A DNA stretch of 64,000 bases, taken from contig NC_092019.1 of NCBI RefSeq assembly GCF_042242105.1, forward strand, positions 22,620,828 to 22,684,827, given 5' to 3'. A program made the position numbers and the translations under genes. Under the pieces are notes generated by a model. That model saw nothing but the letters and a program-made list of their open reading frames with translations. It was not told where the DNA came from and made no database searches. This DNA is from Pempheris klunzingeri (lineage: Eukaryota; Chordata; Actinopteri; Acropomatiformes; Pempheridae). The stretch's first letter is position 1. Every line of letters begins with the position of its first letter. Positions 8,079 through 50,121 of the stretch are shown piece by piece.

Positions 8079-9397
8079 TTACTCCGAGTGCACACACACA
8101 GCCACGTTCTTGTGTCTCTCCCAGTAGTGACAGTCTTCCGGAAAGCTCCACGCAGCTGCAGACTCCTTGTGGCGACTGACAGCGTGAACAACAAACCCGC
8201 ACAGCTGCTTCTCCAACACCTCCACCACCGCCGGGGCGTTTCCCTTCTTCCCCTGGCCCTCCATCGCCTGCTGGATGCAGTCACGGGGCACCGGCTGGGG
8301 TTTGGTGCTGTACGACACCACCAGGTTGATGTTGTTCACCTGGAGCACCTCGAACCAGTTGCGCCCCGCCACGTGATGAAAGTGCTCCCCTGCTCGCCAG
8401 TTCCGGTAGGTGCTCCCTGAGTGGTTGATTAGCCGCACTGACCAGCTGACCCAGTCGTACTTTTTCACCAAGAAGTCAAGGAGCTGCTGAGTCGTATCTT
8501 GCAGGTTCTCTTCATCTTTTTCTTGCAGGACACGCTGGGCGTCTATTTTTGCTTGCTCTGGGAAGGCAGCGATGCAGGACTCGATGGTCGTCTTCATCGT
8601 GGACTCTACTTCTTCAATCTTGCTGCTCCACTCTTGGACTTTGTCCTCTTCCTCCTCTTGGCCCTGGGTTAAGGCACAGTGGCCCAGCAGAGCAATCAGC
8701 CCCAGACAGAAGAGCTCCTTCATCCGGACACAGAAATCTTCCAGGAGACGACGGTTCCTTGCTACATACCTGCAGGACAGAAAAAACATGTACATTTAAG
8801 GAAGTTATCTGATCAAGAATCCAGAGATGCCTGGAATAATAATAACATGAGAGCTGCAATGAATCCAGAAACATAAATATAGAGAAATATAACACTTTAC
8901 CTTTCAACTAACTCTAAAACCTGCTCTCCAAAACTGTTTGTCCCCATCACAGCATCATACAGCACAAACAGGTTCTTCTCCCCTCCAGTTTTGGCAAAGT
9001 GCTCCAGAAAGAGTCTGGTCTTCACCTCCCTGAACTGCGGTTTTGCCTCCAAGATGTCCATATACTTCCGAAACTGGTTCCTAATGTTCTCCTCCACTGA
9101 GAAGTACTGGGAATCCAGCCTCCCCTTCTTGATCTCGCAGTCGATGTCCTCCAGCTGGGAGGAGAGCACATCGAGCTTATTCCTCACCGTCAGGAACTGC
9201 TCTTTGACGTAGAAGACCTCTTTGCTCTGGACGTTGTCTAAAGCCAGGCGGAGAACCGGAGCGGCGGCCTCACAGAGGGGGAAGAGCTCGCCCACAGCGC
9301 TGGCCAACACCTCGGCCCCCCTCTCAAACATATCCATCACTGCCTCGATGGCCTCCTTCTTCTGGGCCACAACCCTCTCCAGTGAGCTGGACATGTT
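8079..9397 (-). CDS. rpz-like: Rapunzel-family protein, two coding exons
   Basis: Coding segments are 9394..8901 and 8769..8079, giving 394 residues. The first ATG (9394) lies three bases after a splice acceptor (CTCTGTGTCTCAG), so the 5' UTR is spliced. Exon 1 ends in GAAAG/GTAAAG and exon 2 begins after CTGTCCTGCAG, both phase 2. The first half is helical, with the family phrase VEENIRNQFRKYM followed by NLFVLYDAVMG. A short hydrophobic segment (about residues 184-199, LFCLGLIALLG) follows, then an acidic stretch and a C-terminal domain with WVSWSVRLINHSGS and NWRAGEHFHHVAGRNWFEV. I recognise this as the fish rapunzel family; mutation of the founding zebrafish gene causes skeletal and fin overgrowth, but the biochemical role is unknown. 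It is a neighbour of the shorter family member at 16278-16961. Confidence 0.85.
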
Positions 9398-9912
9398 CTG
9401 AGACACAGAGGGACGAAATCTGGCGTCAAATATGAATAAACCCTGAGTAGAAAGATGTGGAGTGCGTGACGAAATGGGTCAGAGTCTTTATTCTGTTGAA
9501 GTATTCATGAAATAGACTGTTGCAGTGATTCACAACCTTTTTTGCCTTGTGAACCATTAAAACAAAGCAGTGCCAAAACAACCCCTTTACAGGTCTATGA
9601 ATTGTGAGCAGTTCCACCAAAAAGTGATTTTAAATATCTCAATTTGATTCATTTAAATAATCGATAGAGGCCAGAAGGGGTCCATCTATGTAGTAGGCTA
9701 TTTCACAAGAAAAAATACACAGATTAGATAAAAAGCTAAAAAGCACAGAACACAGAACAGTGTTTTTCATCCCATGAAATGAAGTTCTTTAACCAGGTTC
9801 AGGAACAATGACCACGCCTCATTCCCACCTCATTTCCGCACCAAAATATTTAACCTCCTCATATCCGTTGCTTCCCCTTTCGACTCGGTCTTCACATCCC
9901 TCCCAACCAAAC

Positions 9913-16277: not shown

Positions 16278-17005
16278 TCATTTGCACTTTCCGAGAGCCT
16301 CCTGCATCTTCTCCTGCACGTGCTCCATCTTCTCGGCCCACTCCTCACTCAGACCCTCCTCGTCGTCGCCGATGACGGCGGCGTAGCCCATGAGGGCGAT
16401 GAGGCCGATGCAGAAGAGGTAGGTGAGGCGCGTGCAGAGTCGCTCCATGGTGGCGCGGTCGCCTTGTGAGTGCTTCAGGTAGACCTCCAGGATGGGTCTG
16501 CTGAAGAGCTTGGGTTTGCCCACCACGCCGTCATACAGCGTGTGCAGGTTCTGGTCTCCCAAGTCATCGGCATAACTCAACTCAAAGTCGTCCTTCTTGC
16601 TCTCGCGGTGCTCCGGCCGCGCCTCCACCATCTTCATGAACTTTCTGAACTGGTTCTTCAGGTTCTCCTCCACGCGGCAGTACTGGCCATCCAGCGTTTC
16701 CTTCTTGATCTGCACCAGCGTGTTGTGGTTCTGCTGGGACAGATCGTTCAGCGCCTGGTGGACCGAGCCGAACTCGCGCTTCAGGGTGCGGATGTCCTCG
16801 TCGTCAACGTGGTGCAGCACCACCCGGATCAGGGAGCCGGCCACGCCAAAAATGGGGTTGACCACAGCTGCTGCTGAGGAGATGGTGGCCACACACTGGA
16901 GCACTTTGACCAGGCCCTGCTTCAGCTTGGCCCGGTCCTCGATGATCTCCTCTTCCATCATGATGTCCAGGCGGCGCGGATGTTGAGGTCACAGTGCGAG
17001 GACGT
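16278..17005 (-). CDS. rpz-like: Rapunzel-family protein, single coding exon
   Basis: The reading frame 16961..16278 encodes 227 residues from ATG ATG GAA GAG. The exon begins at an acceptor at 17005 (CTCCGTCACAG), leaving 44 bases of 5' UTR. It shares with the gene at 8079-9397 the core RVEENLKNQFRKFM, then NLHTLYDGVVG, and a hydrophobic segment LFCIGLIALMG (about residues 182-192). It then ends after a short acidic helix and lacks the long C-terminal domain of its neighbour. The N-terminal part has another hydrophobic stretch (ISSAAAVVNPIFGVAG, residues 27-42). The shorter length matches the compact rapunzel paralogues of fish. The cellular role is not known; a helical membrane-associated protein is an inference. 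Confidence 0.85.
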
Positions 17006-24354: not shown

Positions 24355-27300
24355 TCAGCTGCACATTATTCCTTCACTGTTGCCGTGGGCTCCTCCTGTG
24401 TTTGGTGCCAGTGTTTCTTCGGACGGCTCCATGCTGTGGAGCAGGTGTTCGTACTGTGCGGCTTCGGTGCGAGCGATTTTCCGAGCGTAGTACCTCCTGG
24501 ACGCGGCCCTCCACGCCTCCCTCTGCTGCGTCTGAGACTCTTCAGGCAACTCCGATATCAGCGTCTTCCTTCTTCTGTCCACAAAGGAGATGGGTTGTGA
24601 ATACCGGGAGTCTGTGATGTGGGGGAAGGGGCCGGGGCGCAGGGGGTTCGCCTGCTGGCGGGCTATTTTTCGGGCGTAGTAGCGCCTGGAAGCCGCTCTC
24701 CAGGCTGCCCTCTTCAGTGTCTGAGCCTCCTCCGGCAGCTCCGACATCGGCACGCTCTTCTTCCTGTTCCTGAGGAGGGCGACAGGTGAGAAAGGATCAC
24801 ACGGATGAGTAGGCAGGAAGTTCAGGTGGGAAGACGAACGTAAGGGTGTGCATTGCTTCTGACTGATTGAAGCTGAAAAAAAACTGACCATCAAGTTATT
24901 TATCAAGCTAAATGCTGAAACATTTACTGGTTTCCGAGATATGTGTTCTCAATGGAATATCTTGGGGTTTTCGACTGCTGGTCAGACAGCGTCTTGTTTC
25001 CTGTCTATACTGTCCTCTCATATGGACAAGGAAACCCCCAAAAATTAAGTCATTAAAAATAAAGCAATCTGAAGAAGTCACACGTCCCATTGGGGTGTGA
25101 TGGGAACCTAATAGAGGTTAAGAATAACCCAATGATTATAATAATGCTTGGCTGCCACCCTTTGAAATGCTGATTGTGAAAAAGTACAAAGGCAAAGAGA
25201 AGCTGTTAAATAGAGAGATGGAAATCACTATGGAGAAGTAGATGGCCCGATGGTCTGTGCGCCCCCAGACAGAGTTACCAGCAGGGACACTGAGCAATGT
25301 GCTGCTGTGGACAGGAGCAGCAGAAAAACATGTTTCAGCCACCTAAGAAAGGGTTCACCTAAAAATAAATCAATGTCAGTTTAAGCGTACACTATATTTA
25401 GAATATTTTCACTGATGTGCTTATGTTCTTCTGCTGTCCCTGTCCACAGCAGTACTTTGCTTAGTGTCCATGCTGGTATTCCTGTCTGCCTCCAAACTGC
25501 AGGTAATACACTGACTGAGGATAAGTGCCTTATACAACCCTACTTCACAAATATCTGAAATATTCCTTTCATTATAAAGAGCTGATGCCACAATCCGATG
25601 CTAAAAACTGATGTTTCATGTAACTGGAACATTTTGGAGAAAATTTCTCGGCATACAGGAACATCTCTTTGTCTACATTTAGCTAATTGTCCACAGAAAA
25701 CATCCCCAACAACATTTTGGGTGGATTTTCCGCTGAAGCGGGACGCATGCTGATGAGGTGTCTGTGGGCCTCGTGCGTCTACCTAAGAAGTAACCCACCT
25801 CAGGTGTTCTCCCTCAGCCACGTGCTGTCCGTCTGGGTCAGCATGAGGCTTCTCCCTGAACTTCTTTCTCTCTCTGGTCTCCAGTTTTTCTGAACACATC
25901 AGAAGGGATGAATACAAACATACCGCCATGAGAATACACTTTTATAGTGGCAGCATTTAGCTGAGGCTTTTCTAATACTGCTACAATGAGGGCTGGTTAT
26001 TGTTTGAAAAAGTTTGATACCAAAACTCTACTGGAATCTCAGCTTGAAGTGAGAACTATACACAACATCCCATTTTGTTTAATAAGAACATGTTTTTACT
26101 GTTTAACAAAATAAACTAAATGATTAATTCTGACACAGTACAAAAATATATTTAAAATGAGCAAAAAGTCTTCTTAAATCAGGAAATATCTGATCAATCA
26201 ATAAGGAAAGAAGCTGAAAAATCTGATTGCAGATTTTGATGGCAAAACTTAAGCATTACACTTTACTTTTCACACCTAGGCTCTCTTTGTCCTGACACGG
26301 GCTGCTTGTGCTCTCCTGATGCTCCCCAAACCTCTCTTCGCTCATCTCCCACTTGATTAAGACCGTGTCGATGTCGCACGGCTCCTCTTTGATGACGAGG
26401 CTGCTGGGAGATGTAGGCAGATTCCTGGCTGCCTCTGACACGCCCGGGGAGTCTGAGGAGTGGGAGGTGGAGGTCTGGTCCAGCCCCATTCTGCTGGGGG
26501 ATGATGGAGGAGCCGACTCGTGGCTTTGGGAGGAGACGTGTGAGGGGGGTCGCGCAAAAAGGCCCACTGTGGAGAGAGGAGGCAAAAACCAGCATTCTCA
26601 GTGGTGGCAGATTGTATTTACTCCTTTTTTGTGTATTTGTACATTTTTTTCAGTGGGCATAAACACTCAGCGCTCAGATGTCCCATGTCTTTTTTGTTTT
26701 TGTAGATCCAATGTCTGATTGTCCAGGCTAAAAATGTACAAATAATCACAGTCCACATTAAATGTATACATCAACATCATCATCATAAGCAAAAGTAATG
26801 CAATAACATGTACTATGACAACATTTTACATCAATTATTCTTTAATACTTCAATTGAACTCTTTTCTCAGACAAATATGCGAAACATTCACTGATCCCAG
26901 CTTTTCTGCATCTCTCTGGTTTATATATTTGTAAGCTGCACATCTGAGTTTTACACTGATGTTAGTAGCAATCAAGCTATTTGAAGACATCACCATTTTA
27001 TAGACTAAACAACTGATCAAACAAATAGTTGCCAGAGAAAATAATTGATGCATTGCAGCACCTCGTAGATCTTCACATAAGTTATTGTCTTCTATTGTAC
27101 TGAATAACTTCTTTAATTCTGCAGTTCTGCTTGGTGTCCTGAAGACCCCCGGGGGCCTCTGCAACAGCTCAAGAAACACACCTGACATGTTTACTTCATG
27201 ACTTTTTTGTAAGAAACACGGATTCTAACTGGCTTTTTCTTTTTTTAAACCACCTCAGCTGTAAAATGTGCAGATACAATAGATCTTCATATGCTCCATA

Positions 27301-27905
27301 CCTGTGACATTTGACACCAGCCTGTTGGCCCATGTAACAGGATTTCTTTTGTCAAATATTATGACAGTGTTATTCTAACACATACAGCAGGAGGGTCAGT
27401 GGGACCCCAACCTGAGAGGATCTAAAGCTACTGTCAGCACAAACAAGCATCCTCCCAGCCTCGGACCCTCTTGTGTTCATGAGCGTCTTCCTGCTCTGAT
27501 AATCTAGGTTTACTTACAGGAGATGCTCATCTCACACTCCTGGTGGCCAGCTGTCCTCTCACTGTCCCTGCTGCTCGACCCAAAGCGGCTCAGCTCTCCG
27601 GCCTGTGGCTCACCGGAGGTCTGTGATCCCTGGAGGCCGTGCTCTCCTCCAAACAGCCCGCAGGAGCATCCCCGCCGGCGCAGCACCTTCAGCTCCTGCT
27701 CGATCTCCCTCAGCCTGCACTCCAGCCGCTGGATCTCTTTGTCCCTGTCGGCCACCATCCGCTGGTACTCATGAGTCCGGCCACTGTTGACCCCGTACAG
27801 CACGTTTATTATCGAGTCTATGGCCAAGCGGATGGCGTTTTCCACCACAAGAGCTTCCTCGTCGCGCAGCTGTGGGTGCAAAGTCCCGTTTTTGACCAGA
27901 TCCAT
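24355..27905 (-). CDS. Coiled-coil protein with duplicated RRYYARKIAR motif, function unknown
   Basis: Coding segments 27905..27518, 26566..26267 and 24872..24355 join in phase 1 each time and give 401 residues. Donors are CTCCT/GTAAGT and GAAAA/GTAAAG; acceptors are CTCTCTCCACAG and GTCAGTTTTTTTTCAG. Exon 1 encodes a helical segment (EYQRMVADRDKEIQRLE) predicted to be a coiled coil. Exon 2 is Ser/Pro-rich and contains IKEEPCDIDTVLIKWEM. Exon 3 carries two copies, about 63 residues apart (from residues 273 and 336), of SELPEE-x-QT followed by AWRAASRRYYARKIAR. I do not recognise the family. The basic repeats suggest nucleic-acid binding, but that is inference. Exons 1-2 are related to those of the gene at 29755-38036. 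The last splice junction is the least certain. Confidence 0.6.
25500..25575. repeat. Fragment of the fold-back element family
   Basis: The text GTAATACACTGACTGAGGAT and CTTATACAACCCTACTTCAC matches the right arm of the element at 32120-32680 (GGTACACTGACTACGGATAA and on). Only one arm survives. Confidence 0.5.
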
Positions 27906-28596
27906 CCTCAGTATCTGTTTGGATGTTAGCAAGCTATGTGGGAGCAGTGAGGCTAGCAGCGAGGATGCTAGGCTACCAGCCGCCACACGCACGGAGGTCC
28001 AAGAAAACACAACAATACAGTCACATTTAAGACGAGAACCAAAAGCTTTCGTTTTGTGGAACAAGCGAAAACAAAAGGGAGAAAGGTAGACCTCTCCTTG
28101 GCTCACACTGAGTCCACCACATCAGAGATGCAGGTGTGCTTCCTGCGTCCTCCACTTCTTCGGTGAATCGGCTCGTCAGTGGAAGCCACAGCGCCGCCTG
28201 CTGGCCGGTGTGAGCGCTCACAGTCAGGCTGCAAACAGATAAACTGAAGTCAATTGATTGATAATCGCTTAATTTTTTGGTCTACACAGCCTCAGAAAAA
28301 GCAAAAATAAAATTCAAAGATGAATATAATATGTTTCAATTTACAGTGATATAAAACTGGGAAAACGTGTCTAAACCTTACAATTTCTCTGCTGGAATCA
28401 GTTTATGTTTGGCAGTTTTACTTCATAAAAGCATCAAATGGTTAATCACTTATCAACCATTTACTAATTGTTCCTGCTACTACTTGGGGTATTCATATCT
28501 GATTTTGACTCTTACTTTAGAATGGAGAAGTAGAAACAAGAATAGGAAATAAAAACAGGAACAGTAATCAGTAAACTGAGTGTAATTGATGTCTAG

Positions 28597-28775
28597 TGTC
28601 AGGCTGTGGGCTGCCCATTGATAACAGCGGTGGCAGTCCAATCCCCAGCTCCTCCTGTTCACATGTAAACGTGTGCTTGGGCGAGAAGTTGAACTCCATG
28701 TTGCTCACTTAGAGCAGCTGGAGGAGGATGGTAAAGTGCTTCGGATAAAAGTGCTACATAATGCAGCCCGAGCTG
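28597..28775 (+). repeat. tRNA-derived SINE (plus orientation)
   Basis: It starts GTCAGGCTGTGGGCTGCCC, has a box-B-like CAGTCCAATCCCCAGCTCC, and finishes with GTAAAGTGCTTCGGATAAAA and GTGCTACATAATGCAGCC, the tail phrase of common teleost SINEs. It lies between the two coiled-coil genes. Confidence 0.5.
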
Positions 28776-29754
28776 GAAAACAAGATATGTAAAGGCAATA
28801 TACAGTAGAATGATGTGGGAGCGTGCATTATGTGTAGATATTGATCCTAAATATGTGGGATATTTACTTTATACTGAGGCAGATACACAATGTACACATT
28901 GTCCTTATTTAAACATGAACATACATTAGTCTCCTGTGTAAAAGGTTTGCTCAACCTTAGTGAAAAGAAACCACACGATTCGTACAACTTTTAGCCTGTT
29001 TAATGAAAACCATTAAATAGATGACATAACGCATAACATGTCAATAAACCTGACAAGCAATAAGGCCAAACAAGAACCAGGCAACTGCTTCAAATAACAG
29101 ATCGCCTCCTGTAGAACCGCTACACTAGAATCACTGATGATCTGTGATTTTAACTTACAGTACATATATTATATAAATAAAACAGAGATATGATTTTACT
29201 GATACCACAAGGACACAAGGTTATTGCAAGTGATTTTCTGCAACACATTTCCTGCAAGAGAATACCATACGCAGGCATTATCTAAACGGATATATTTACA
29301 GTTTTTGAAGTGATATTTCTCACTTGAATTTCAAAAAATTCTGAGGCCTACCAACTATAAATATCGTGAAGTCATTCTCTGAACTCAAACTATGTCTGAT
29401 GGATAAACCTTATAAACTAATATCAAAATAAGATAAACGTTTAAGTACAATGAATGATGAACTCTAGAGAGCAAAAACAACAACAATGGTAATAGTGCAA
29501 ATCTGACACATATCATAAATGAAAAAGAAGTGAGCATTTTACTGTTTAGCTTGCGTCTATCAGATCCTACCTTACCTTACCCTGTTGTGTTAAACTATTA
29601 CAGATCACATGACGGTCTCACGTGAGATGATAGAGGTGAATTAAAGGGTTGTTTTTCTTTGCTGCGGCCCGCTGTTTGTTCATGGGCAAGGGTCAAAGTA
29701 AGTGTGCTTGTTTGTGCGATAAATACAATGTGCACTGTACGGGCTTCAAGCTCG

Positions 29755-32700
29755 CTACTCGATCACACGGGTGAACAGCTCGCCCACACAGTAATCTTGC
29801 ATGCTGTTTGCTTCTTTGCCCTTTTCTTGCCGCCTTTTCCTTCCTCCGTCTCGGTCCCCTGCCAGCTGCAGCCAGCGCTTCATGTACCTCTCTATCTCCT
29901 CATCCACGGCTTCCTTGCAGAACGAATTCTGCCTGACTGCATCTGCAGGAGTGAAGAGGTGCAGGGTATAAATAAATAAACAGATAAATAAATAAATAAA
30001 TAGCGTTGTGCCTGTTAAAAATGTCGCCATCAGTTTGTTGCAGACTGTTGTTACCACATCATCAGTTGCATGGTACAGCCTACTCACTGAGGATAACTCT
30101 CTTGATGGTAAGGTTCTCGATTCTCTGCTTGTTATTCCTTCCCCTCCAGTTAACGTTTTTGGCCAAAGCGTTAGTGAAAAGCTTGGCCATTATCCTCCAG
30201 ACACTCTCTTTGGTCGTCATCCCTCCAGACAGACCGAGGTATGAGATCTGCAAAGTAAAACAATGCGGACTTTTATTTAACTGCTACGGTAAGCGGCGCC
30301 TTTTGAGTCATTTCGACTCCTCAAAGCGCTTTTACATCACATCCTCGTTCACACATCATTAATTCAGGAGGAATCACACTGAAGCTGCTTCGGGATCAAG
30401 CTGGGGTTCAGTGCCCAAGGACACTTCGACATGCTGACTTAGAGGAGCCGGGGATCAAACCGCCGACCTTCCAATAGATGGAGTACCCACTGCACCTCTG
30501 AGCCACAGCTTCCCCCGCTATGTACACTATGCATTATTTTTTCCAACATAAAACGATAGCTGAATATGGATCTTTCGACGGTGCAGTCAACATACACAAT
30601 ACACAACAGGTTTCATACTAGTCAGCAGCCTCATGAACTTTAAAGGAAAACTTCGCCATTTTGGGAAATGCATTTATTTACTTTTTTAATTAAAGCGAGA
30701 TAGAAGATCAATGTCACATGAATGGCTGTATAAATAACTGATTTGACTTGACTCGTGTTCATTAAATGTGCAGCCATAGCCAGGAGACATATAAACCGAA
30801 GAGTGGAGTAAACAGGTTTTCATGCTTGGTCATTAACTCCCAAATACCTTTTACACTGCTGGTACTGCAGCAAGTAGAGCAGATTACAGCTGACAGATAA
30901 TATTCAATCAAATTCATCTAATTTGTCTAAATTAAAATTGGTCTAAATGCACTTGAGTATGTTTAAATGTGTTGTATTAAATAAGAGCTCTACACTGTGC
31001 GGCTGTCAAATTAGAAATACACAAGAAGCACCCAAGAGTCACTGAGTGATACAATAAATACATTCACTTATTCTGCAGGAATCCTCTCTTCCTTTATTTG
31101 CAGCAACAGTTTTTATATTCTTCATAGCTCTCCAATATAACAATCCATTATTTTTCCTTTATTTAAGTCCTCATTGAGAAAACACTCAATTTTGTGCAGT
31201 CAAACCCTTTCATAGGAACATGCACAGACCCTGGAGCAGAAATCCTGGGTTAACAAAGACAGTTAATAACCACCGTCGTGATACCTGTTGTCTCTGACTG
31301 AGAGTTTAGGGTTGGTGGAGCTGTAAGGCCTTAAAGACATGAGAGTGCCGACTAACTCTCGGCAAGAAAGCATATAAGCTCATTGTCTAAAAAACTATTC
31401 CTGCCCACTAGACTATCAGGAGAGGTCCCTGTGCTTTGTTGATGTCCTCATCACAGTCATCACAGGTAAACAGAAGTCAGAAGAAAAATCACATCTCTTG
31501 GCCCCTTACCATTTTCTTCTTGAGCTCTGGTTCAGTGGAGAGCCTCTGCTCCAAACTCCCTAAGTCCTGTACTGACTGAAGTGGAAGCGGAAGCATCCCG
31601 ACGTCTGGAGGTTCACCTGGCGGTGCTCCAGGTGAGTTTCCTGACTGCAGTATTTGGAGAACAGTGGTGTTCTGCTGTTTGATGGTCTCCAGTGAAACGA
31701 GCACCTCTAAAAGTATTGCTTAAAAAAAAAAAAAAAGAAAGAAAAACAAACACTTTAACATCTTAAATCCAGTTTTCTTGGATTCAACAAGGTTATCTAC
31801 ATTAACTTTCATTCCCTGAGTAGCTGCTGTGACCCTGTGTTTGTGTGTGTCTCTCCGTCAGTCTGCAGATGAACGAGGTTAACAGTAGAGAGCAATGCCA
31901 GCTGTGACTGATGGGTGGCAGCAGGTGTCCTTCTTGTGTCTCATTAATGTTACTGTATTTGTTGTTCACTAACCCTGGAAACTCTAATAACTCTGTATTT
32001 TCAATAATAATTTTAGCCACATTGAGAAGATAATTCAGCGCAACGTGTTTGTTAATTTAGAGTTTCATTGCTTAAAAAAAATACAACCTCTAATGATTTA
32101 ATTTGAGACTTAATTTCACTTAAAAGGGACAGTTTGGATGTTTGTAAGTAGGGATGTGTGAGGTATTTATCCATAGCCGGTGTATTACCTACAGTAGATG
32201 ACGCTCGGTACATCCCCAGTTTGGAGAAGCAGACAGGATCACTAATTAATGTACTAGCGAAGGAGGACAAAAAATACATTTTGGCTCAGACAAGTCATTA
32301 GTCTAGTTACTTTGACTGTCATGTTTTAACTTGTTAGTCCAGATCCCAACTAACTCTTTAAAACACCAATAATACAAAGAAACCAGCCGAACGAGGCAGC
32401 AGCAGTAGACCAGCGAGTCCTCTGTTCTGCAAAGTAAAATTCATGTTTTCGTCAATGGAGTCTGGTTCACTCTGGTTCACGCATTAAAAAGGGCCGTCTG
32501 AAGGCAAGGTAAAGTGGTGACAATATAAAGAAAATAGCACACGCTTAAACTTTTTTTTTTCAGGAGGGCCTTTTCTTAAGGAGGCTAAAACACAACGCTA
32601 TCTACTGTAGATGGTACACTGACTACGGATAAGTACCTCATACAACACCACCTCAAAAAAAATCCAAACTATCCCTTTAACTGAACTGTATTTACAACTT

Positions 32701-35700
32701 TAAACTGGGCCAGTGATGTTTAAGATAATGCTCATCATATATCATCTGAGCACATTCCTGACAATGTATTACTCAACTATACACATATGTGTGTCTGGTC
32801 AAAGGTCACTGTCCACTATGGATGACTTGATTATGACAAACACATTCACGAACAGATCTGCGGCTCTTACAGTCACACGTGGGTTGCGGAGGTGACATAG
32901 TGACGTATGTCTGCTGCTCTTGGGTTGCGTTTAAGTTTGAAGTCTGTGGTGAGCTGACGACTCCCAGACTGTATTTTGGAGCAGTTATTTTAGGTGCAGA
33001 GGACTGGGTCACACAAGCTCTCTTCACAACAGCCTCCTCTTCCTCACTCTCTGGCAGGTGGCATCTGTTTCTTTCTCTAGATTCGAATGAAGAATTTAAA
33101 ACAGGAAATATTCTGGTCATTGAGGTGCCACTTTTGTTCTGTCTAAGCACACATCATCAGACCTTCAAGAATAAGGTAAGACAAGGTAAGACTGAGCTTC
33201 CACTGCAAACACAGATTCTGGTTCATTCACCACGCTGACACATTTTCCCTCTCCTCCCTCAAACATTGTGCTTATTCACAGGGAGAATCTGCTTTTGTGC
33301 TCAATAAAAAAAGGCAATCTGGAGTTCATCAACAAACAATCTGTATGTGTGTTTGATTACTCTATCAGGATGCAAATATCTGTACCTTCCTTTGCGTTTT
33401 AGAGGGGCGGCACCCTCCTCTTCATGTTCTGTTGCCATCAACTTGTCGGTCTGGAGATTTGTGGTTTTTGCTTCACATTCAGCCTGCGTGTCTGCGAAAC
33501 AAGATTTTAATATCGTTCACATTGGCAGACAGAATCTGACACTGAGGAATGAACTGATGGAACAGATCTGATTCTTGATAGCATTTTAGTAGCACAAAAC
33601 CTAATTTGTGTTAATTATCAGAACTCTGTGATTGTGTGGCGATTGGCTCACATTGGGTACTACTTTGCTAAATCAAACACTTGTAGAAAAATATGTTCAT
33701 GTTGATGTTCCGGAAATACGTGGTTTTCCTTTTCTCTATAGTATATATATCTTATTCTTATAAATAAGAACTACTTATTTGAAATTTAAAAAAAAAAAAA
33801 GACTTCTGTTGATAAATCTAACAAATTTGACCATTGCTTTGTTGTGACTCAATGTTGATGTTTCATCCTTGTCAATTGGTAGTAAGCTGTCACACAGTAT
33901 AACCACAGCCTTCTTACACTGGGAACTGTTTTCCCACGCGTGAACTCTTTGGCAGCAGTAAGTTTATTGATGCCAGTTATAGCCACATTTTACACAATAG
34001 CGGTATGCTCATTAAAGCACAAGACTGGCTGTGTTATATCCCATGAAAATGCCAAAACCAAGCATGAATTAATCCCACTAACATGTACTCTATTTTCAGT
34101 GGACCATCCTGCTGCTGTAAATACTCTATGGAGGACCAAATGTGTATTAATCCGCGGCTAAAAATAGTCCCCACCAAAGGCTCTTGTAAGATCTGCTAAA
34201 AGCTACAGTACCCACATGCTTCAGGCTTTTTTTTGGACGTTGTGATTCGCTGTCAGTAAGTAAAAAATCTAGAGTTATAGCATCCTCAATCTTTAAGTGA
34301 GTTGATTGATGGCAACGGCAGCTACAAACCAACACATCAGGCATGAAATTCTGTTCACCTGTGACACAAAATACTCTTCAGCTGTTTATAATCACTTTCA
34401 AACAACCGAGACTATTAAAAATGAAAAGTGCTTTGTACCACTGATTTAAGCGGTCATCAAAAGACAGTAAAGCACTTTTAATTAAGTTACACTTTTGAGC
34501 TCTGGTCTTGTGTGTGAACTTGGCCTTCAGTTTTCTCGTCAGCCCTGAAAATGAACACACACACACACATATATATATATATAGAAGACATGAGATGGAC
34601 AGATAACATATAATCTTACTGAGGACATGACTCATGACTTAAGTTCACTCATCAAAGTGACAGCTACCAAGCAACCGGTTTCAGCAACTAAAGGGGGAGA
34701 AAGACAGAAGGTGGGTCTTTGTGGGTCGGTTTCAAACTAACTCAGATTAAGAGATAAGCTTGCCTCAGCTAATGTCAATGGAAGAAATAAAGTTGAGGAT
34801 GTACGCGACTGGGTGTGCATCACGAGTGGAGAGCGAACTGTTCCTTCCTAACAAGTATTCGTGCTGCCAAGGCAGCAAATGCATGCTAATTTATTGACAC
34901 ATGATTTGAAGGACAATTAACTCCCAAGGTGCATTTCAGCAAGAAAAACATTCACTCACCCAGCTAGAAAACGCTGTTATGTACGTTGCTAAAGGCTGGT
35001 GAAAACTAAAGATGCTAAAGTTGTTACACTGCTGACCAACAAAGTCAAGGAGATCTTTAACATCCTTCACAGGTTTTATTAAATTAATCATTATTTGCAG
35101 AAACTCAAAGATACTGATATATACTGCACATTATGAGGAGAGCTAAGAGAAACTCTGGTGCATTTATTTTGGTCTTTTGGTCTTTGCTCATAAACAACAA
35201 TTCATTCATTCATTATCCCCTATCTATACCTCTTATCCTTAAGGCCAAACCCAGTGATTCTGGCACACCTCGGACTGGGCCGGCACACAGAGACAGACAC
35301 CCATTCATGCTCACACCTGCAGGCAATTTGAGTCATCAGGTTTCTCAGCACAGGGAGATCATGCAAACTCCAAACAGAAAGAACTGTGGAGTAAACTCTC
35401 TTCATCCTCTCTTTATTATTACTTTGGAAAAATGTTGGGAAAATAATTAAGATAAAATGAATATGCTATGAAACAAAGTTGAAAAATTAAAATCGATGGC
35501 CATAGGATAAGGCTAGATGATTGTTAGAATCTCTGGGAGAGTCCATCCATCCATCCATCCCTTTTCAACTGCTTATCCGGGGTCGGGTCGCGGGAGCAGC
35601 AGTTTTAGCAGAGATGCCCAAACTTCCCGGGCCCCAGACACCTCCTCCAGCTCATCCGGTGGGACCCCGAGGCGTTCCCAAGCCAGCCGAGAGACGTAGT

Positions 35701-38036
35701 CCCTCCAGCGTGTCCTCCTTCCGGTGGGACATGCCCGGAAAACCTCCCCAGGGAGGCGTCCAGGAGGCATCCGAAACAGATGCCCGAGCCACCTCAGCTG
35801 GCTCCTCTCGATGTGGAGGAGCAGCGGCTCTACTCCGAGCCCCTCCCGGATGGCCGAACTCCTCACCCTATCTCTAAGGGTGAGTCCGGCCACCCTGCGG
35901 AGGAAACTCATTTCGGCCGCTTGTATCCGAGATCTCGTTCTTTCGGTCATGACCCAAAGTTCATGACCATAGGTGAGGGTACACTGGACTCTATGGGCGA
36001 GTCCAGTGTCTCGATGTTTCTACTATTCTGGTGTTATTTTGACGCTTTGAGGACCACAAGCCATGAGTGTCATCCGATGCCGCTGTATTCATGGGAAGGT
36101 AGACATCAAATCCATATTTCATGCTAATTATAAACAGGACTTGAGTATGTAGTGACAAAATAAAACACAGTGTACTGCAGATGGACAGAGCTCAGGAAAT
36201 GCAGCTGCAAAAAAATTAAACTAAATGATGAATGACGGTCGAACAGCTCCAGAAACACCTCAGAAAAAAAACCCAGCAACAGTACAAAATGTTTGTCCTT
36301 CATGTTTACTTTAACGGCTTTCTGAGTTCAGCTGTCATTGGCTGTTATCACCTCGAGCTAAGCCTACAGAGATGTCTCACGCCGGCTGATTTCACAAGGG
36401 ACGCAAAGGTTCAGCGTGTTTGAATCCAACTAGCTTGCACGACGTGTCTTCTGACCACGTCTGAAGCCAAAAGGGTTTCCACCTTTCCACCTGGCGGGGT
36501 GAAAAAGCCTCTCCTGACCTCAGCGATCTCTGTCCAAGAAGCGACGGCACACACTTTCACTCTCTCCTCCAGGGCATCTGTGATTTAACACTTGCTTGTT
36601 AAACCATGTGCGAGGAATGAGAGAAAAAAAAAAAAAAGAGTGATTGTGATAGAAGTTCAAACCCTGCCCACAAAAGGTGGCAATAATATCAGATAGTCTC
36701 TTCTTCAAAGTAATAAATATTGCAGGAGGGTTTCAGATGCTGCTCATCAACTAATAAGATCTGACTTTGTTTGAAGTCTTACTGTTACCCCTAAGAACTT
36801 TTTTTCCCTGGTTATACTTCGGTAAAACTGAGCAGACATATTTACCTATTTGCCAACCACATGTGACTAACTCCTGTAGCTGTGTGGGAGGGAGGTTGTA
36901 ACGCCTTAGTTCGACATTAGTTCTGGTGGGGGGTTACTGTGGAGCAAAGATCAGGGGACTGATAGCCTGCAGATCATGGTTTTCTTGCATATCTGACTTT
37001 GCAGACACACCAGAGAGGCTGACGTCATTCACCACTGCTCACTTACTCACTCTGCCAACGCTGGGAGATGACGACAGCGGCTGAGCTTACCTCTGTCTGC
37101 AGGCTTTCCTCCACGCCGCCCCTCCTGCTGATCCTCACACACTTCCCATTTAATGACCGTCTCTGAGTTAGAAGCTTCCTCTTTGACCTGGGGGCTCGTG
37201 CATCCAGAGGGCTGGCCTCCAGCTGCTCCTCCACCGTCCCCTGAGGGTTTCTCAGTCTGGGCATGTTGGCGGGGGAAGGCCTCCATTGCCTCAGGACTCT
37301 TGGAGGAAACTTGTTTGGGTATTTCCGCACCTACATCTGATGAACAGATAAATGAGTGAAAAAAAACAATGAGTGGGTGGACTTCCTGACGCACCCACGT
37401 GTTGCGCTGCTGGTGAGATGTTGTGCATCCTGTTATATTCTTCCACACACTGATGTCACTTACCACAAAACTGGACTTCCTGACCGCACCCACGTGTTGC
37501 CCTGCAGGTGAGATGTGCATCCTGTTATATTCTTCCACACACTGATGTTACTTACCACAAAACTTAACCTCAGGCTCGTTTTTCATGTCCTTACAGGAGC
37601 TGTTGGCAGCTTCACCAGAGCTTATGCTCCACGCATTAGACGGGACCGTCTCGGGCCGTCTCCTCCCTCCCACCTGCAGACGCAGCATCTCCAGCTCACT
37701 TTCGCTTTTCTCCAGGCTGGACTCCAGTCTCCTGATCTCCGTGTCCCTGTCAGCCACCATCCTCTGGTACTCCAGCACCCTGCGGCTGCAGGCGCTGCAC
37801 ATCACGGCCATCACCGTGTTTATGGCCGCCCTGATGGCGTCCTCTATGGCCACAGCCTCGTCCTCGCTGTGGAAACTTGGAGGCAGCCCGGACAGGTTGT
37901 GTGTGTTTTCATCACCGACGCTGCACATCGTTACACACTCAGTGAGCTCTGTGACTCTGTAGAGGTGCTCACAGCCACCCACGACACGATAATCAGGAGA
38001 AATTATCCGCAGACACAGTTTGGTGTCTGAATTCAT
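29755..38036 (-). CDS. Coiled-coil and DUF4806-domain protein, function unknown
   Basis: Proposed coding segments are 37928 (or 38036)..37556, 37336..37091, 33491..33386, 33076..32871, 31718..31510, 30247..30088 and 29942..29755; all phases agree, giving 495 residues from the inner ATG. Exon 1 (EYQRMVADRDTEIRRLE) and exon 2 (QVKEEASNSETVIKWEV) are related to the first two exons of the gene at 24355-27905. The last three exons encode a helix ILLEVLVSLETIKQQN, then LPLQSVQDLGSLEQRLS, GMTTKESVWRIMAKLFTNAL, NWRGRNNKQ and AVRQNSFCKEAVDEEIERYM. I recognise these as DUF4806, a domain of unknown role in fish and insect proteins. The 3.6 kb intron between 37091 and 33491 carries LINE debris. The join across it rests only on phase, and these could be two genes. 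Confidence 0.55.
29969..30001. repeat. (AAAT)n microsatellite
   Basis: A run of AAAT/AAATA units within the last intron of the DUF4806 gene, beside the acceptor of its final exon. Confidence 0.85.
30372..30516 (-). repeat. tRNA-derived SINE (minus orientation)
   Basis: Read on the minus strand it gives AGCTGTGGCTCAGAGGTGCA (box A region), GGTCGGCGGTTTGATCCCC (box B region) and AAGTGTCCTTGGGCA. These are recognisable features of a widespread fish tRNA-derived SINE. It lies in an intron of the DUF4806 gene. Confidence 0.55.
32120..32680. mobile_element. Fold-back MITE with long inverted ends
   Basis: The left arm (TTAAAAGGGACAGTTTGGAT) and the right arm read on the other strand (TTAAAGGGATAGTTTGGATT) stay alignable for about 90 bases, including TTATCC and CTACAGTAGAT. 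There is no coding content. It sits in the intron between the exons at 32871-33076 and 31510-31718 of the DUF4806 gene. Confidence 0.65.
34555..34583. repeat. (CA)n(TA)n microsatellite
   Basis: A CA repeat passes directly into a TA repeat, within the proposed large intron of the DUF4806 gene. Confidence 0.85.
35197..35410. repeat. Degenerate LINE/SINE tail repeat
   Basis: The ATTCATTCATTCATTATCCC start, followed by ACACAGAGACAGACACCC, ATTCATGCTCACACCTGC and CATGCAAACTCC, matches by memory the abundant teleost repeat whose core reads 'cacagagacagacaaccattcacactcacacctac'. It is diverged and shortened. Confidence 0.5.
35533..35977 (-). mobile_element. 5'-truncated non-LTR retrotransposon (Rex3/RTE-like end)
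   Basis: The minus-strand frame 35950..35573 encodes the very C-terminal part of a fish LINE reverse-transcriptase protein, with MSFLRRVAGLTLRDRVRSS, QLRWLGHLFRMPP, WRDYVSRLAWERLG and EVWASLLKLL. It is followed by a (GGAT)n tail (35537-35556). All upstream parts are missing, as expected for incomplete reverse transcription. Rex3-type elements are known for GATG tails; the clade assignment is tentative. Confidence 0.7.
36413..36577 (-). other. Possible alternative terminal exon of the upstream coiled-coil gene
   Basis: After the acceptor GTTAAATCACAG there is an open frame of 54 residues in the right phase (phase 1) to follow the donor at 37091, ending in TGA. Its start can be read as ALEERVKVCAVASWTEIAEV. 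It would give a short protein without the DUF4806 domain. There is no family match, so this may be chance. Confidence 0.25.
37379..37564. repeat. 94-bp direct tandem duplication across a splice donor
   Basis: Two near-identical copies (37379-37472 and 37473-37564) each contain, on the minus strand, AGTTTTGTG/GTAAGT, so the exon 1 donor of the coiled-coil/DUF4806 gene is present twice. The copies differ by a few substitutions and small gaps. Confidence 0.9.
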
Positions 38037-39913: not shown

Positions 39914-42900
39914 TTAGCTCTTTTCCTCTTGCAGGGAAACGGATGGAACATTTGGGCTGCTTCCTTTGGACACTAAGACAGGAGCAAAACCTCCTGCTGT
40001 TTTGTTGAGAATGCAATAATCATTACAGTAACATGGCGGCGGACGGTCATCAACGGGACTGTGTGCTACGCTGCAGTCTGGGCTTTGAGTCAGGTCCTCA
40101 CAGCCGCAGCCAGAGTCTGCACGGCTGATGTTTAAGAAGTCTTTTGGCGGAGGGGAGACGACTTCTACTTGTCCAATGCCAACTCCCCAAACAGAACAAG
40201 GCAACTGAGTGTAAGACGTGTTCTCTGGGCCGACCATAGTCACAGGTGGGGAGGCCTCCTGTGGGGCGACATAGGAAGTCTGACACTGAGTGAATACCAG
40301 TGGTGTTATTGGAGGGTTGTGGAAGTCCTCGTCCTCCTCTGGCTCTTGTGTAATGGGCTTCGGCACAACAATCACAGCGTCAGTTGTCAAGATCTCCTCA
40401 GCTTTGTGTGTTAGCACATATTTGCCACGAGGTGAAACCCACTCCTGTAAATTCAGTAGCAATGAGATACATCAGGTGTGATAAAGGTGCGTGAATAATT
40501 TTCACCGTAGCATGTTATACACAACATACACAAAAAGAGTCCCAAAACTAGCAACATTCCCACCAGCCTCAGCTGTACGTTGTGTTTAGTGCTAATTAGC
40601 AGATGTTTGCATGTCAACAAGCTGCTGTGGCTGTAGACTCTTTACTGAGTGACCCCAGAGGTACGTACACTTTTTGTCATATCTCACAGGTGCTTTACTC
40701 TCGCATTCCAAATGTTCATGAATTTGTCAATCAATTTGTCAGGAATGACTTCATGTCATTGTTTTCTGTGTCTGTTTTAGTCAGTGCTTTTTATAAATAC
40801 CAATGCACTTTGCCAATTCCACCTCTGCGCTCTGGCAGACATTTTGAAGGGGACAGACAGAGATGAAGCGGGCACAGTTTTCCTTTCCTAAAGTATCTAT
40901 TTTCATTTGACACAATATGCAAATTGACCACCCTTTCCTAAAATAATTATGATAGATTTTTTTCAGATGACCTCAATTACATAACAAATCATGTCTGATC
41001 ATTAACTTACAGATTACCAGGATGCTAGTTGGCAATCAGTTTTTTTCTCACACATGTCCTTGACTAGTACAGTTAGCAAGTTTGTTAGTTTTTTAGTATA
41101 GTCAGTGTATAAAAGCTAAGCTATGTGTTGGGCTTTGCATCGTACTGTCTCCATTTGTGTATTTCCTCTCATTATTCTGCAAGGTTCACTGTAGTAAAGC
41201 TGAAAGGAAACCAAACAAAATAAAAAAAAAAACCGTCCTTGAGGGCTTTAATTATACTCATTACATGACCACACTTCATGTCTGTAGCAGGAGCTGCTCT
41301 AAATGTTGTCACGCAGAGGAGCAGAGTTGGCTTCATTTCCTAAAATAAGACAATGAGACAGAGAACGGACAAGAGGGCGCTGCATTAACACCTCACCTGG
41401 AGATTGCCCCCGTGTTGTTGAAACAGAGGTGTGAAGAAAGGGGCTGGCGATGGTGTGTGGGACAGAGTTTTTATCTTCATTCTGTCGCACGAATCGGGAC
41501 AGATCAGAACAAACGAACCGCATTTGACTTTTTCTCATTCTCAAGAGCAGATTATGTAATTAATGACAATCTTCAATTTCCACTTTCACCAGCATTTCAA
41601 AGTACAGATGAATTACCGTGCAGCGGGACTGTAGAATACACACAGCAGGACTCCAACAGCCAAACACAGTGGGCCCAGAGATTTGGACAGAATGATAAAT
41701 ATATTATCTTGATCTGAAAAAGAATACAGTTATTAGTCATATTACAGAGGTACCAGTAAGTCTATTAGGTGGCTGGTGGGCGGTGGTTATTTTCTAAGAA
41801 AGTGGTGATTAAAAAGGAAGGAAATGATTTGATGTCTTTAAGACTGACTCAAGTCATTCATACAATATACAACATTTACTAAAGATGATACTGAGAGACA
41901 TACAATTCAGGGACAAGACCTCACGCACTGTGCAAGACAGCAGTAAGCAGACATCACATATACCTGTATATCATCATTGACAGTCAGTGCCATGAAGAAC
42001 AAAAAAGTGACATTTTACCTTCTCCTGCTTCATTTTCCCAGCACGTCAGTGGACTCCACATACTCCAGGTTCCATCATAATCAGGGTGGTTAACGAGAGA
42101 TCTCACTTTAACACAACATTTAGCATCTGGTTGGAGTTGTGATCTCGAAATGGATGCAGACTTGTATGAAGTGGGATGAAGAATCTGAGAACAGAAGAAA
42201 CAGTGAAACAAGCGGTTACTGTTAGACCTCATTGTAGGAAAGTATGGTTGTGTGTGTGTGTTTTCTTTTTTTTTTTACAGTGTGGCAGTGGCTCTCACTT
42301 TGGTCTGTTGGTCTTGAGATGTTTGAAGTAGGAGTTCGTATTCAAAGACACTGTCGAAGCCTTGACGCTTCTCATACCCACTTCTCCAAGTGATGTTGAA
42401 AGTGTCTGCTGTTTGTTGGAGCACAACCTCATGTGGTGGTGTCAGCAGAACTGATCATAAACATCATTCATCAAACGTTACTTATATATGAAAATATCTC
42501 TAATATATACAGAGCGTCTTGCAAAGACATTACCTAATGTTTGTTACAATGAGTTCATACTTACTGTTCAGTGAAGGTAGAAAGCTCTCTGTTACAGTAG
42601 TGCAGCCAGATTCATGGCAAAGCTTTATGAGATATCCAGTGGCAAAATTAAAAGTGTCGGAGATGACTTTACAGACACAGCTGTAACCGTGAGTCCCCTC
42701 CACAAGTGGACAGGAAACGACGTCGCCACTAAACATTTCAAACGCAACAACAGAACATTAACATGTGTCTGTGGCACAAACCTTGCTTGAAAAGAATTTA
42801 ACATGTTCATTTATTCATGTAATCCTGCAAGAAGTGTATTTACTCCTTTTCAGTGAATTCCAGGCTGTAGGTGGTGTTGGACTGTCCCGCAGGGTTACCA

Positions 42901-46627: not shown

Positions 46628-47722
46628 CAGTTGCACAACTAATGTTACAGGTGGTTTCTCCAAATTCAACACAATATGCAACTTTTAATGACGACTGCAG
46701 TCTCAAAATTATTCAACCCCTTCTTGACAAGCATCTGTAGTACTTAGTAGAGCAGCCTTTTGCTGTTATGACCTGCTGCAAACATGATGCATATCCAGAC
46801 ATCAGGTTCTCACAGCGTTCCTGAGGAATCTGAGCCCATTCTTCATGGCCAACAGCCTCCAGCTCTCTGATATTCTTGGGTTTATGTGCTGCAATCGTCT
46901 TCTTCAAATCCCACCAGAGATTTTCTGTGTGATTCAAGTCAGGCGACTGTGACGACCACTCTAGTATCTGCCAGGACTTTTTCTGAAGCCTTGGTGGACT
47001 TTTGACGTACACTTGGGATCATTGTCCTGTTGGAAGGTCCGATGACGTCCAAGCTTCAGCTTTCTCAAACGGCCTGATGTTTGATAGAATCCATCTTGCC
47101 CTCCAAACGCTGCAGGTTTCCAGAGCCAGAAGAAGCAAAGCAGCTCCAGAGCATCACTGAGCCACCGCCATGCTTCACTGTAGACAGGGCGTTCTTTTCA
47201 GTGTAAGCCTCATTCTTCCTCCTCCAGACATACCGCTGATCCATACCGCTGAAAAGTTCCAGTTTTGTTTCATCGCTGCACAGAACAGAATCCCAAAACT
47301 TCTGTCTTATTTCGATGGTTTCGAGCATATCGGAGCTGACTTGTCTTGTGCTTTTCTGTCTGTAGTGGTGTGAAAAAAAAACCCCGAGCCAGTCTGAGTA
47401 TTTGATGTTTTCTATCTCAAGCACACCTGATGCAGCTAATGAGGCTCTTGATTAGTTACATCAGGTGTGCTTGAGACAACACCTGGTTTGTAAATGAGTC
47501 TCCTATGAGGGATTCTATTCAGGGGGTTGAATACTTTTCAGACTGCAGTCATTAAAAGTGGCATATTGTGTAGAATCTGGAGAAACCACCTGTAATATTA
47601 GTTGTGTTGAGCTATTTCAGTTGTTCTTGTTTGAGCCGTTCATTGAACACAGCTGAAAGTTTGTACATTTTGCCAATAGACCTAATTTGCAATGAGGGTT
47701 GATTATTTTTTTAGTGCAACTG
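46628..47722 (-). mobile_element. Tc1-like transposon, defective
   Basis: The 1095-base element is bounded by CAGTTGCAC and GTGCAACTG, with TA on both sides (46626-46627 and 47723-47724). Inner inverted repeats of about 80 bases (46640-46721 and 47522-47600; AGGTGGTTTCTCCA) are well preserved. Two separated minus-strand frames (47424..47065 and 47012..46713) carry transposase pieces: CSDETKLELFSG with its catalytic Asp, and WSSQSPDLNHTENLWWDLKK with catalytic Asp and the third acidic residue of the DDE triad. The N-terminal DNA-binding part is gone and the frames are shifted, so the element is inactive. Confidence 0.85.
47416..47475. repeat. 60-bp near-perfect hairpin inside the Tc1 relic
   Basis: CTCAAGCACACCTGATG at the left pairs with CATCAGGTGTGCTTGAG at the right, and a further CTAAT/ATTAG pairs closer to the centre. 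It lies where the transposase N-terminus would be expected. Confidence 0.85.
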
Positions 47723-49130: not shown

Positions 49131-50121
49131 TCACTGTGTTTCGTGGAGGTCATTCTCTGAGTTGCTGGAGTCCTCTTGAATAGTGCTACTTATCATCCAC
49201 TGCTTGACGTAGTTAGAATTTGAGATTTTGTGCCCACGGTATAAATCAGAGTCTATCTGCTCTGCTATGTTTGAGTCTGAGGCTCCGGGGCTGCTGCACT
49301 CCCCAAAACCACTGTCAATGGTGTCCAAGTCCACGTGAGGGTAGCCGTCTTCTGACTGCTCGTGTGAGGCGAACGAGTCAAGTGATACCCTCTCTGGTTC
49401 ATTAGGCTGGGCATGTGGCTGAAAGATGATATTCTCTGCTGATATGTCATTAGATATTTGGTTTTCCTGGTGTGGTAATATCCCACTTTGTCTTTCCAAC
49501 CTAGATATCTGAGGTTCCTCTAAATCAAAGCCAGCCTGCTGTCTGTTGTCTTCTTCAAATGAACCCTGCAACGCGACTTCCGCCTCAAACTCTTCTTCTC
49601 CAGACAGGGTTACAGTATGGATGAAGATGTGTCCGGCGGAGTGGCTGGTGCCCTGTGAACTGGCACCGTCCTGGAAGAGCAGCAGCGAGCTGCTGTGAGG
49701 CTGCAGCATGTGGAGGAAATGACCAGCTTGTTTCATCTCGTTGTCCCCGCTGTAACTTTGTTTCTCGTTCTTCCACTCAAGGACGCTGTGCCGCTTCTCG
49801 CTCGTGGGCTGAATTTGCGGGCTGATCCTCACGTAGTCATGCTCACTGAATACAGGCTTCACCCACTCCTACAACAGAGCACATAGAAAACAATGATTAG
49901 GACCACTGGACTATGAAAGTATGAATGGATCGTTGCTTATTTGCTTTCTTGTTGGGAGAGATGAGAAGATTGATGATTGTACAGTACATATGAAGATGGA
50001 GTGAAAAGGCAGTTAGCTTAGCATAAAGACTAGAAGAAAGGGGAAACTGTTAGCCTGTAACTCCCAGTAAAAACACAGCTTGTCATTCAGTTTAAATATG
50101 GATTAACAAAATATAACATGT

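Follow-up and report, generated by a model that had tools for sequence, protein, structure and literature searches.

Two neighbouring genes on the minus strand, here called A and B, were analysed in a 64,000-nucleotide stretch of the genome of the percomorph fish Pempheris klunzingeri (NCBI RefSeq assembly GCF_042242105.1, contig NC_092019.1, positions 22,620,828 to 22,684,827), referred to below as the window and numbered from its first letter. Both genes begin with a related head of two exons, encoding a predicted coiled coil and a pair of SUMO-type motifs, and continue into unrelated tails: gene A ends in two basic repeats, and gene B in a DUF4806 domain with a predicted BEN-type fold (Table 1). 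All their introns are of the GT-AG type, and the exon 1-2 and exon 2-3 joins are in phase 1 in both genes. An earlier reading of this DNA from its letters alone (the sequence-only reading) had quoted peptides from both genes, all of which are present on the minus strand where it placed them. It missed exon 3 of A and exon 4 of B; the latter is required to connect exon 3 of B, whose end is in phase 2, with exon 5, which has to be entered in phase 1, and its peptide aligns at 60% with the Pagrus major orthologue P0001. The spliced protein of gene A is the annotated P. klunzingeri protein P0026, of which A exon 1 is an exon, apart from one splice choice (four residues for one): the exon 2 donor in P0026 lies 9 bases upstream of that chosen in the window and is also in phase 1. 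The start of B was placed at the ATG at 37928, with which the orthologues align, and not at 38036 (window MCSVGDENTHNLSG, P0002 MTDDNNISHNLSG). Structures were judged from AlphaFold 2 models of P0026 for A and of P0001 for B.

The end of B exon 1 carries a tandem duplication whose copies are spaced 92-95 bp apart (37422-37479/37514-37571, 58-nt copies, 93% alike; 37390-37421/37485-37516, 32-nt copies, 94% alike), which copies the donor region and leaves a second donor-like ACTTACC in intron 1. Intron 2 of B, at the junction between head and tail, contains on its minus strand an open reading frame of 148 amino acids (35573-36019) with no Pfam match, which we take to resemble the decayed end of a reverse transcriptase from a long interspersed nuclear element.

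Table 1. Exons and head/tail junction of genes A and B in the window.
Feature	Positions	Strand	Content
Gene A locus	27905 to 24355	minus	four exons, 3.55 kb
A exon 1 (A1)	27518..27905	minus	start codon; head coiled-coil helix (predicted), residues 15-77; donor gtaagt, phase 1 end
A exon 2 (A2)	26267..26566	minus	SUMO-type motifs IKEE and IKWE; phase 1 in, phase 1 out
A exon 3 (A3)	25799..25889	minus	basic linker; splice sites and phase fit; present in P0026
A exon 4 (A4)	24355..24769	minus	tail with two AWRAASRRYYARKIAR repeats; C-terminal IMCS, then stop
Gene B locus	37928 to 29755	minus	seven exons
B exon 1 (B1)	37556..37928	minus	start codon at 37928; head coiled-coil helix (predicted); donor gtaagt, phase 1 end
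B exon 2 (B2)	37091..37336	minus	SUMO-type motifs VKEE and IKWE; phase 1 in, phase 1 out
B intron 2 (head/tail junction)	33492..37090	minus	phase-1 intron
B exon 3	33386..33491	minus	charged linker, first exon of the tail; phase 1 in, phase 2 out; 72% to P0001
B exon 4	32871..33076	minus	linker; phase 2 in, phase 1 out
B exon 5	31510..31718	minus	second helix/coiled coil (predicted); DUF4806 begins
B exon 6	30088..30247	minus	DUF4806 core; predicted BEN-type fold
B exon 7	29755..29942	minus	end of BEN-type fold, basic C-terminus, stop

The sequence-only reading had called exons 1 and 2 of the two genes clearly related. This was borne out for exon 1, where EYQRMVADRDKEIQRLE in A1 corresponds to EYQRMVADRDTEIRRLE in B1: BLASTP of the spliced proteins at default settings gave E 3.35e-12 over 46 residues, the exon 1 regions match by blastn at E 5.6e-19, and within a 62-residue stretch of the head 32/62 residues and 127/186 bases agree. 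Exon 2 is related only near its motifs (IKEEPCDIDTVLIKWEM in A2, VKEEASNSETVIKWEV in B2), and comparison of the exon 2 DNA by blastn gave no convincing match. Exon 1 is modelled as a single long helix (15-77 in A, 21-87 in P0001) with a predicted local distance difference test (pLDDT) score mostly of 80-97, and comparison of the heads with solved structures returned only coiled-coil-like, non-significant matches (best E 0.11 and 0.24). Chance likeness of two coiled coils was considered and rejected, because the sequence similarity is accompanied by agreement in exon order and phases and in the motif pair of exon 2.

Each exon 2 encodes two psi-K-x-E motifs, the starts of which are 11 (B) or 12 (A) residues apart. 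The first was found in 77/77 A and 16/16 B orthologues and the second in 65/77 and 16/16, respectively, with 77 of the 120 listed A proteins aligned. Such motifs number 1.90 (A) and 2.19 (B) per whole protein, against 0.29 and 0.71 after shuffling. In B, the motif segment has a mean identity of 0.89 and its flanks 0.58-0.59 (P0005, a near copy of P0001, was omitted from the B conservation values). pLDDT is below 50 at the motifs in both models, apart from three residues at the first A motif, so that both proteins have conserved psi-K-x-E motifs in a predicted disordered region, as SUMO substrates do. The paired motifs thus match the pattern of SUMO acceptor sites, at which SUMO would be attached. 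Two further observations concern the A head. QECEMSISLGLFARPPS, which spans the exon 1/2 junction (P0026 residues 118-136), has a conservation of 0.64 among the 77 A orthologues against 0.42 and 0.56 for its flanks, and by eye has no counterpart in B; it is possibly a short interaction motif. In an A relative of 496 amino acids, P0081, the paired-motif stretch occurs twice in tandem, suggesting a duplication of the motif exon itself.

The tails are unrelated. The duplicated RRYYARKIAR exon claimed for A was confirmed as a unit present twice within the single exon A4, with 25/34 residues and 74/102 bases identical between the copies. Helices are modelled at residues 270-297 and 333-369 of P0026, and the A tail is likely to consist of two basic, predicted helical repeats; no solved structure matched it significantly (best E 0.13). 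The extreme C-terminus (24355-24369) reads IMCS in 46/77 A orthologues and ILCS in 15/77. In B, the spliced protein matches the DUF4806 profile (PF16064) at 45.1 bits and E 1.3e-11 against a curated cut-off of 25, as the sequence-only reading had proposed; the two DUF4806 exons searched singly scored 17.2 and 22.4 bits, under that cut-off. Ahead of this domain the P0001 model has a helix at 328-355 in exon 5. The model of the DUF4806 part shows the BEN fold, and this tail is therefore predicted to be a BEN-type DNA-binding fold; either tail may bind DNA. The BEN family is absent from the Pfam matches of B (to E 1 and E 0.1), and a profile search of PDB sequences with B returned no BEN chain to E 10; B was therefore classed under DUF4806, which is related to BEN at the level of the fold. 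A passage of PMC11075544, which cites Pan et al. (2023), gives DUF4806 as a BEN subtype. The statement of the sequence-only reading that neither gene has a named function is thereby improved for the DUF4806 part.

Several known proteins resemble B in part. BANP (SMAR1), a BEN-domain DNA-binding protein, shows only 12-14% identity in fold alignments to B; B has in addition a second helix, predicted ahead of the BEN-type domain, and its pair of SUMO-type motifs, whereas BANP has a further DNA-binding part at its C-terminus. BANP is described, in the part of PMC11472053 bearing on it, as an N-terminal coiled coil plus a BEN domain, with oligomers selecting DNA. The BEN domain of BEND6 is 16% identical to B, in a comparison of the domain alone. 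BEND3, chains of which titled BEN3 and BEN4 appeared in the fold comparison, carries several BEN domains, whereas B has one, and SUMOylation of B is only predicted. For BEND3, two SUMO sites are reported to be essential for NoRC stability in a passage of PMC10377563. Other fish DUF4806 proteins have the C-terminal domain in common with B, and those among the matches of the B search are 39-50% identical to it in local alignments; P0019, P0022, P0023 and P0025 begin with a different head (around MYHIV, MFHIV or MFKIV) that is without the coiled coil. The similarity of B exons 3-4 to the linker of these proteins is too weak for a claim of homology, and their ordinary head gave no convincing match upstream of B in the window. 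DUF4806 proteins are also reported on zebrafish chromosome 4 in a passage of PMC11075544, and are likened to B by description only. The same holds for the FiNZ zinc-finger genes of cyprinid fish, in which, according to a passage of PMC10547256, a short, conserved, fish-specific N-terminal exon precedes a DNA-binding tail, as is proposed for A and B. The FiNZ part is 28 long against about 63 residues for the head helix of A and B, the tails of A and B differ in kind, and Pfam scans of the spliced A and B proteins found no zinc-finger array.

Searching with A as the query yielded 144 proteins (E<=1e-3), and what follows on A homologues rests on the best 120 of them. Fifteen listed A entries, with lgn as their sole source, have 370-496 amino acids and come from contigs of roughly 1.4-2.8 kb, and are inferred to be spliced transcripts because such contigs are too short for a 3.55-kb locus with introns. 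A search with B gave 25 proteins and, unlike that with A, no transcript-like contig. Sixteen (P0001-P0016) combine head and DUF4806, the head being shortened in P0008 and the tail in P0015; P0017 has DUF4806 without the head, P0018 and P0021 have the head and another tail, five are further DUF4806 proteins, and P0024 is a weak match only (13.4 bits, cut-off 25). Proteins of both kinds are nearly always listed as uncharacterized or hypothetical. The A repeat pattern occurs in 113/120 listed A matches and in 0/26 other fetched proteins, and the DUF4806 mark in 0/120 listed A matches, in a set of 146 that is biased by the queries. A P. klunzingeri B protein was not among the matches of the B search, though B reads open in the window; absence from the protein collection is therefore weak evidence.

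Twelve species have a listed A protein plus a B or third-tail protein (see below). In Paralichthys B is without contig; in 11/11 others (Pagrus, Acanthopagrus, Caranx, Melanotaenia, Hippoglossus stenolepis, Echeneis, Xiphias, Cololabis, Aulostomus, Dicentrarchus and Larimichthys crocea) the two are separate proteins on contigs of equal length, a stand-in for adjacency rather than a map. Their gene numbers are consecutive in Caranx (INR49_002005, 002006), Melanotaenia, Dicentrarchus and Larimichthys. Because of this agreement the A/B pair is likely to be an old tandem arrangement. A tree was built from 46 heads (27 A including that of the window, 16 B and 3 third-tail; P0008 left out, six rows cut by a fallback rule); with its 76 columns it is coarse. 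In it, a branch with support 100/100 separates the A heads from the rest. This branch is long, at 0.85 changes per column, and the split of the A and B heads is therefore old.

A third tail, unrelated to the other two, follows B-type heads in P0021 (Dicentrarchus labrax), P0146 (Larimichthys crocea) and P0018 (Anarhichas minor), each named isoform X2. P0146 was found by a search with the P0021 head, which gave 14 proteins, all B-type; it missed A proteins of suitable length and hence cannot show that the head is absent from other genes. Two of the three, P0021 and P0018, match B orthologues as far as KEKPA, which is the end of exon 2 in the window protein. The three heads group with B heads in the tree, though not with one another, and may have a single origin. 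The only Pfam match of the third tail is to SAM_TNK at E 0.011, below cut-off, a weak SAM-like hint; comparison with solved structures found nothing, and a search of the 64-kb window with the three proteins gave convincing matches to the head only. None of the 25 B matches is a DUF4806 form from these three species, which is again weak evidence. On these data the intron after exon 2 may, tentatively, be a recurrent tail-capture site in percomorph fishes, at which a fixed effector head would be re-targeted to new DNA or chromatin partners; the same junction would then have received at least three unrelated modules, namely basic helix repeats, a BEN-type DUF4806 block and a SAM-like module. It is somewhat unlikely that the third tail of sea bass, croaker and wolffish is instead an artefact of gene prediction, joining the B head to an unrelated downstream gene, so that only two tails are real. 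Only three such proteins were found, P0018 is shortened inside, the match of P0146 to B orthologues stops earlier than in the others, and L. crocea P0088, in which gene A is joined to a rapunzel gene, looks like such a false join; yet related third tails stand on B-type heads in three species, and P0021 and P0018 diverge after the same stretch.

For genes A and B themselves, the sequence-only reading had offered a tandem duplication and subsequent exchange of the 3′ half, and this is supported by related heads, unrelated tails, neighbouring positions, the same phase-1 junction intron and a third tail elsewhere. An ancestral two-exon head would have been duplicated in tandem, with each copy joined, at the phase-1 intron that follows exon 2, to a tail of its own, the DUF4806 block being one of these; the order of events is inferred. 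Head duplication with joining of DUF4806 is the simplest account because DUF4806 occurs elsewhere with a different head and the A repeat occurs only in A matches. Exon shuffling at a symmetric intron would call for the same phase in donor and acceptor genes; in the two window genes, which this comparison covers, the junction is in phase 1. Alternatively, the BEN-type tail may be ancestral: a coiled-coil BEN gene was duplicated, and A lost its BEN exons and evolved the repeat tail from new exon sequence. The old split of the heads and the confinement of the repeat to A matches among the 146 fetched proteins would fit this history, but A matches are listed from Polymixia, Lampris, Lota, Muraenolepis and Centroberyx, whereas all listed B orthologues are percomorphs; with DUF4806 elsewhere on a different head, this origin is improbable. 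A single locus with alternative ends, the other option of the sequence-only reading, would place the head copies and tails in one variably spliced transcription unit and is very improbable for A and B: they lie on the same strand with B upstream, B exon 2 could splice in phase to A exon 3, and the isoform names of the third-tail proteins point the same way, but both genes carry a start codon and exons 1 and 2 of their own, the proteins are separate in 11/11 species, no mixed protein was found among those fetched, and the repeat and the DUF4806 mark keep apart as counted above. At the B slot of the three third-tail species alternative ends may still apply.

A duplicated head joined to different tails is the preferred account. 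The coiled coil would pair proteins, the tail would contact DNA or chromatin, and SUMO at the two motifs may recruit or tune corepressors, with B acting like the BEN proteins BANP and BEND3. Because it combines BANP-like and BEND3-like features, B is expected to be a DNA-bound, SUMO-dependent regulator, probably a repressor, and A would be a sister protein of B that is targeted by a different tail. A may also pair with B, given the relationship of their heads. This whole account, of origin and of coiled-coil/SUMO-type/DNA-contact regulators, is given a probability of roughly 0.6. Two points weigh against it: the fold tool attaches its own caution to the BEN-type match, and the third-tail heads are not joined in the tree.

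Elsewhere in the window, rapunzel-like open reading frames lie on the minus strand at 16278-16988 and 8079-9478; the former is 90% identical to the rapunzel part of P0088 (others 30-38%), which is likely to be a false fusion. Decayed transposase pieces at 46713-47451 on the minus strand, presumably Tc1/mariner-like, have a weak DDE_3 match below cut-off (E 0.0035). Two minus-strand frames without a Pfam match (39914-40471 and 49131-49868) look like intracellular tails of cytokine receptors.

The A/B pair falls within known kinds, namely BEN-type proteins and exon shuffling. No description of this head was found in the portions of the literature retrieved for DUF4806, or for the BEN domain with teleost, gene fusion or exon shuffling. 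Through this analysis, two fish genes that are nearly always left uncharacterized gain a testable role, and DUF4806, mentioned in few papers, is tied to a fixed head with SUMO-type motifs. One effector head with different tails in different fishes would provide a natural series for comparing how the tail affects targeting.
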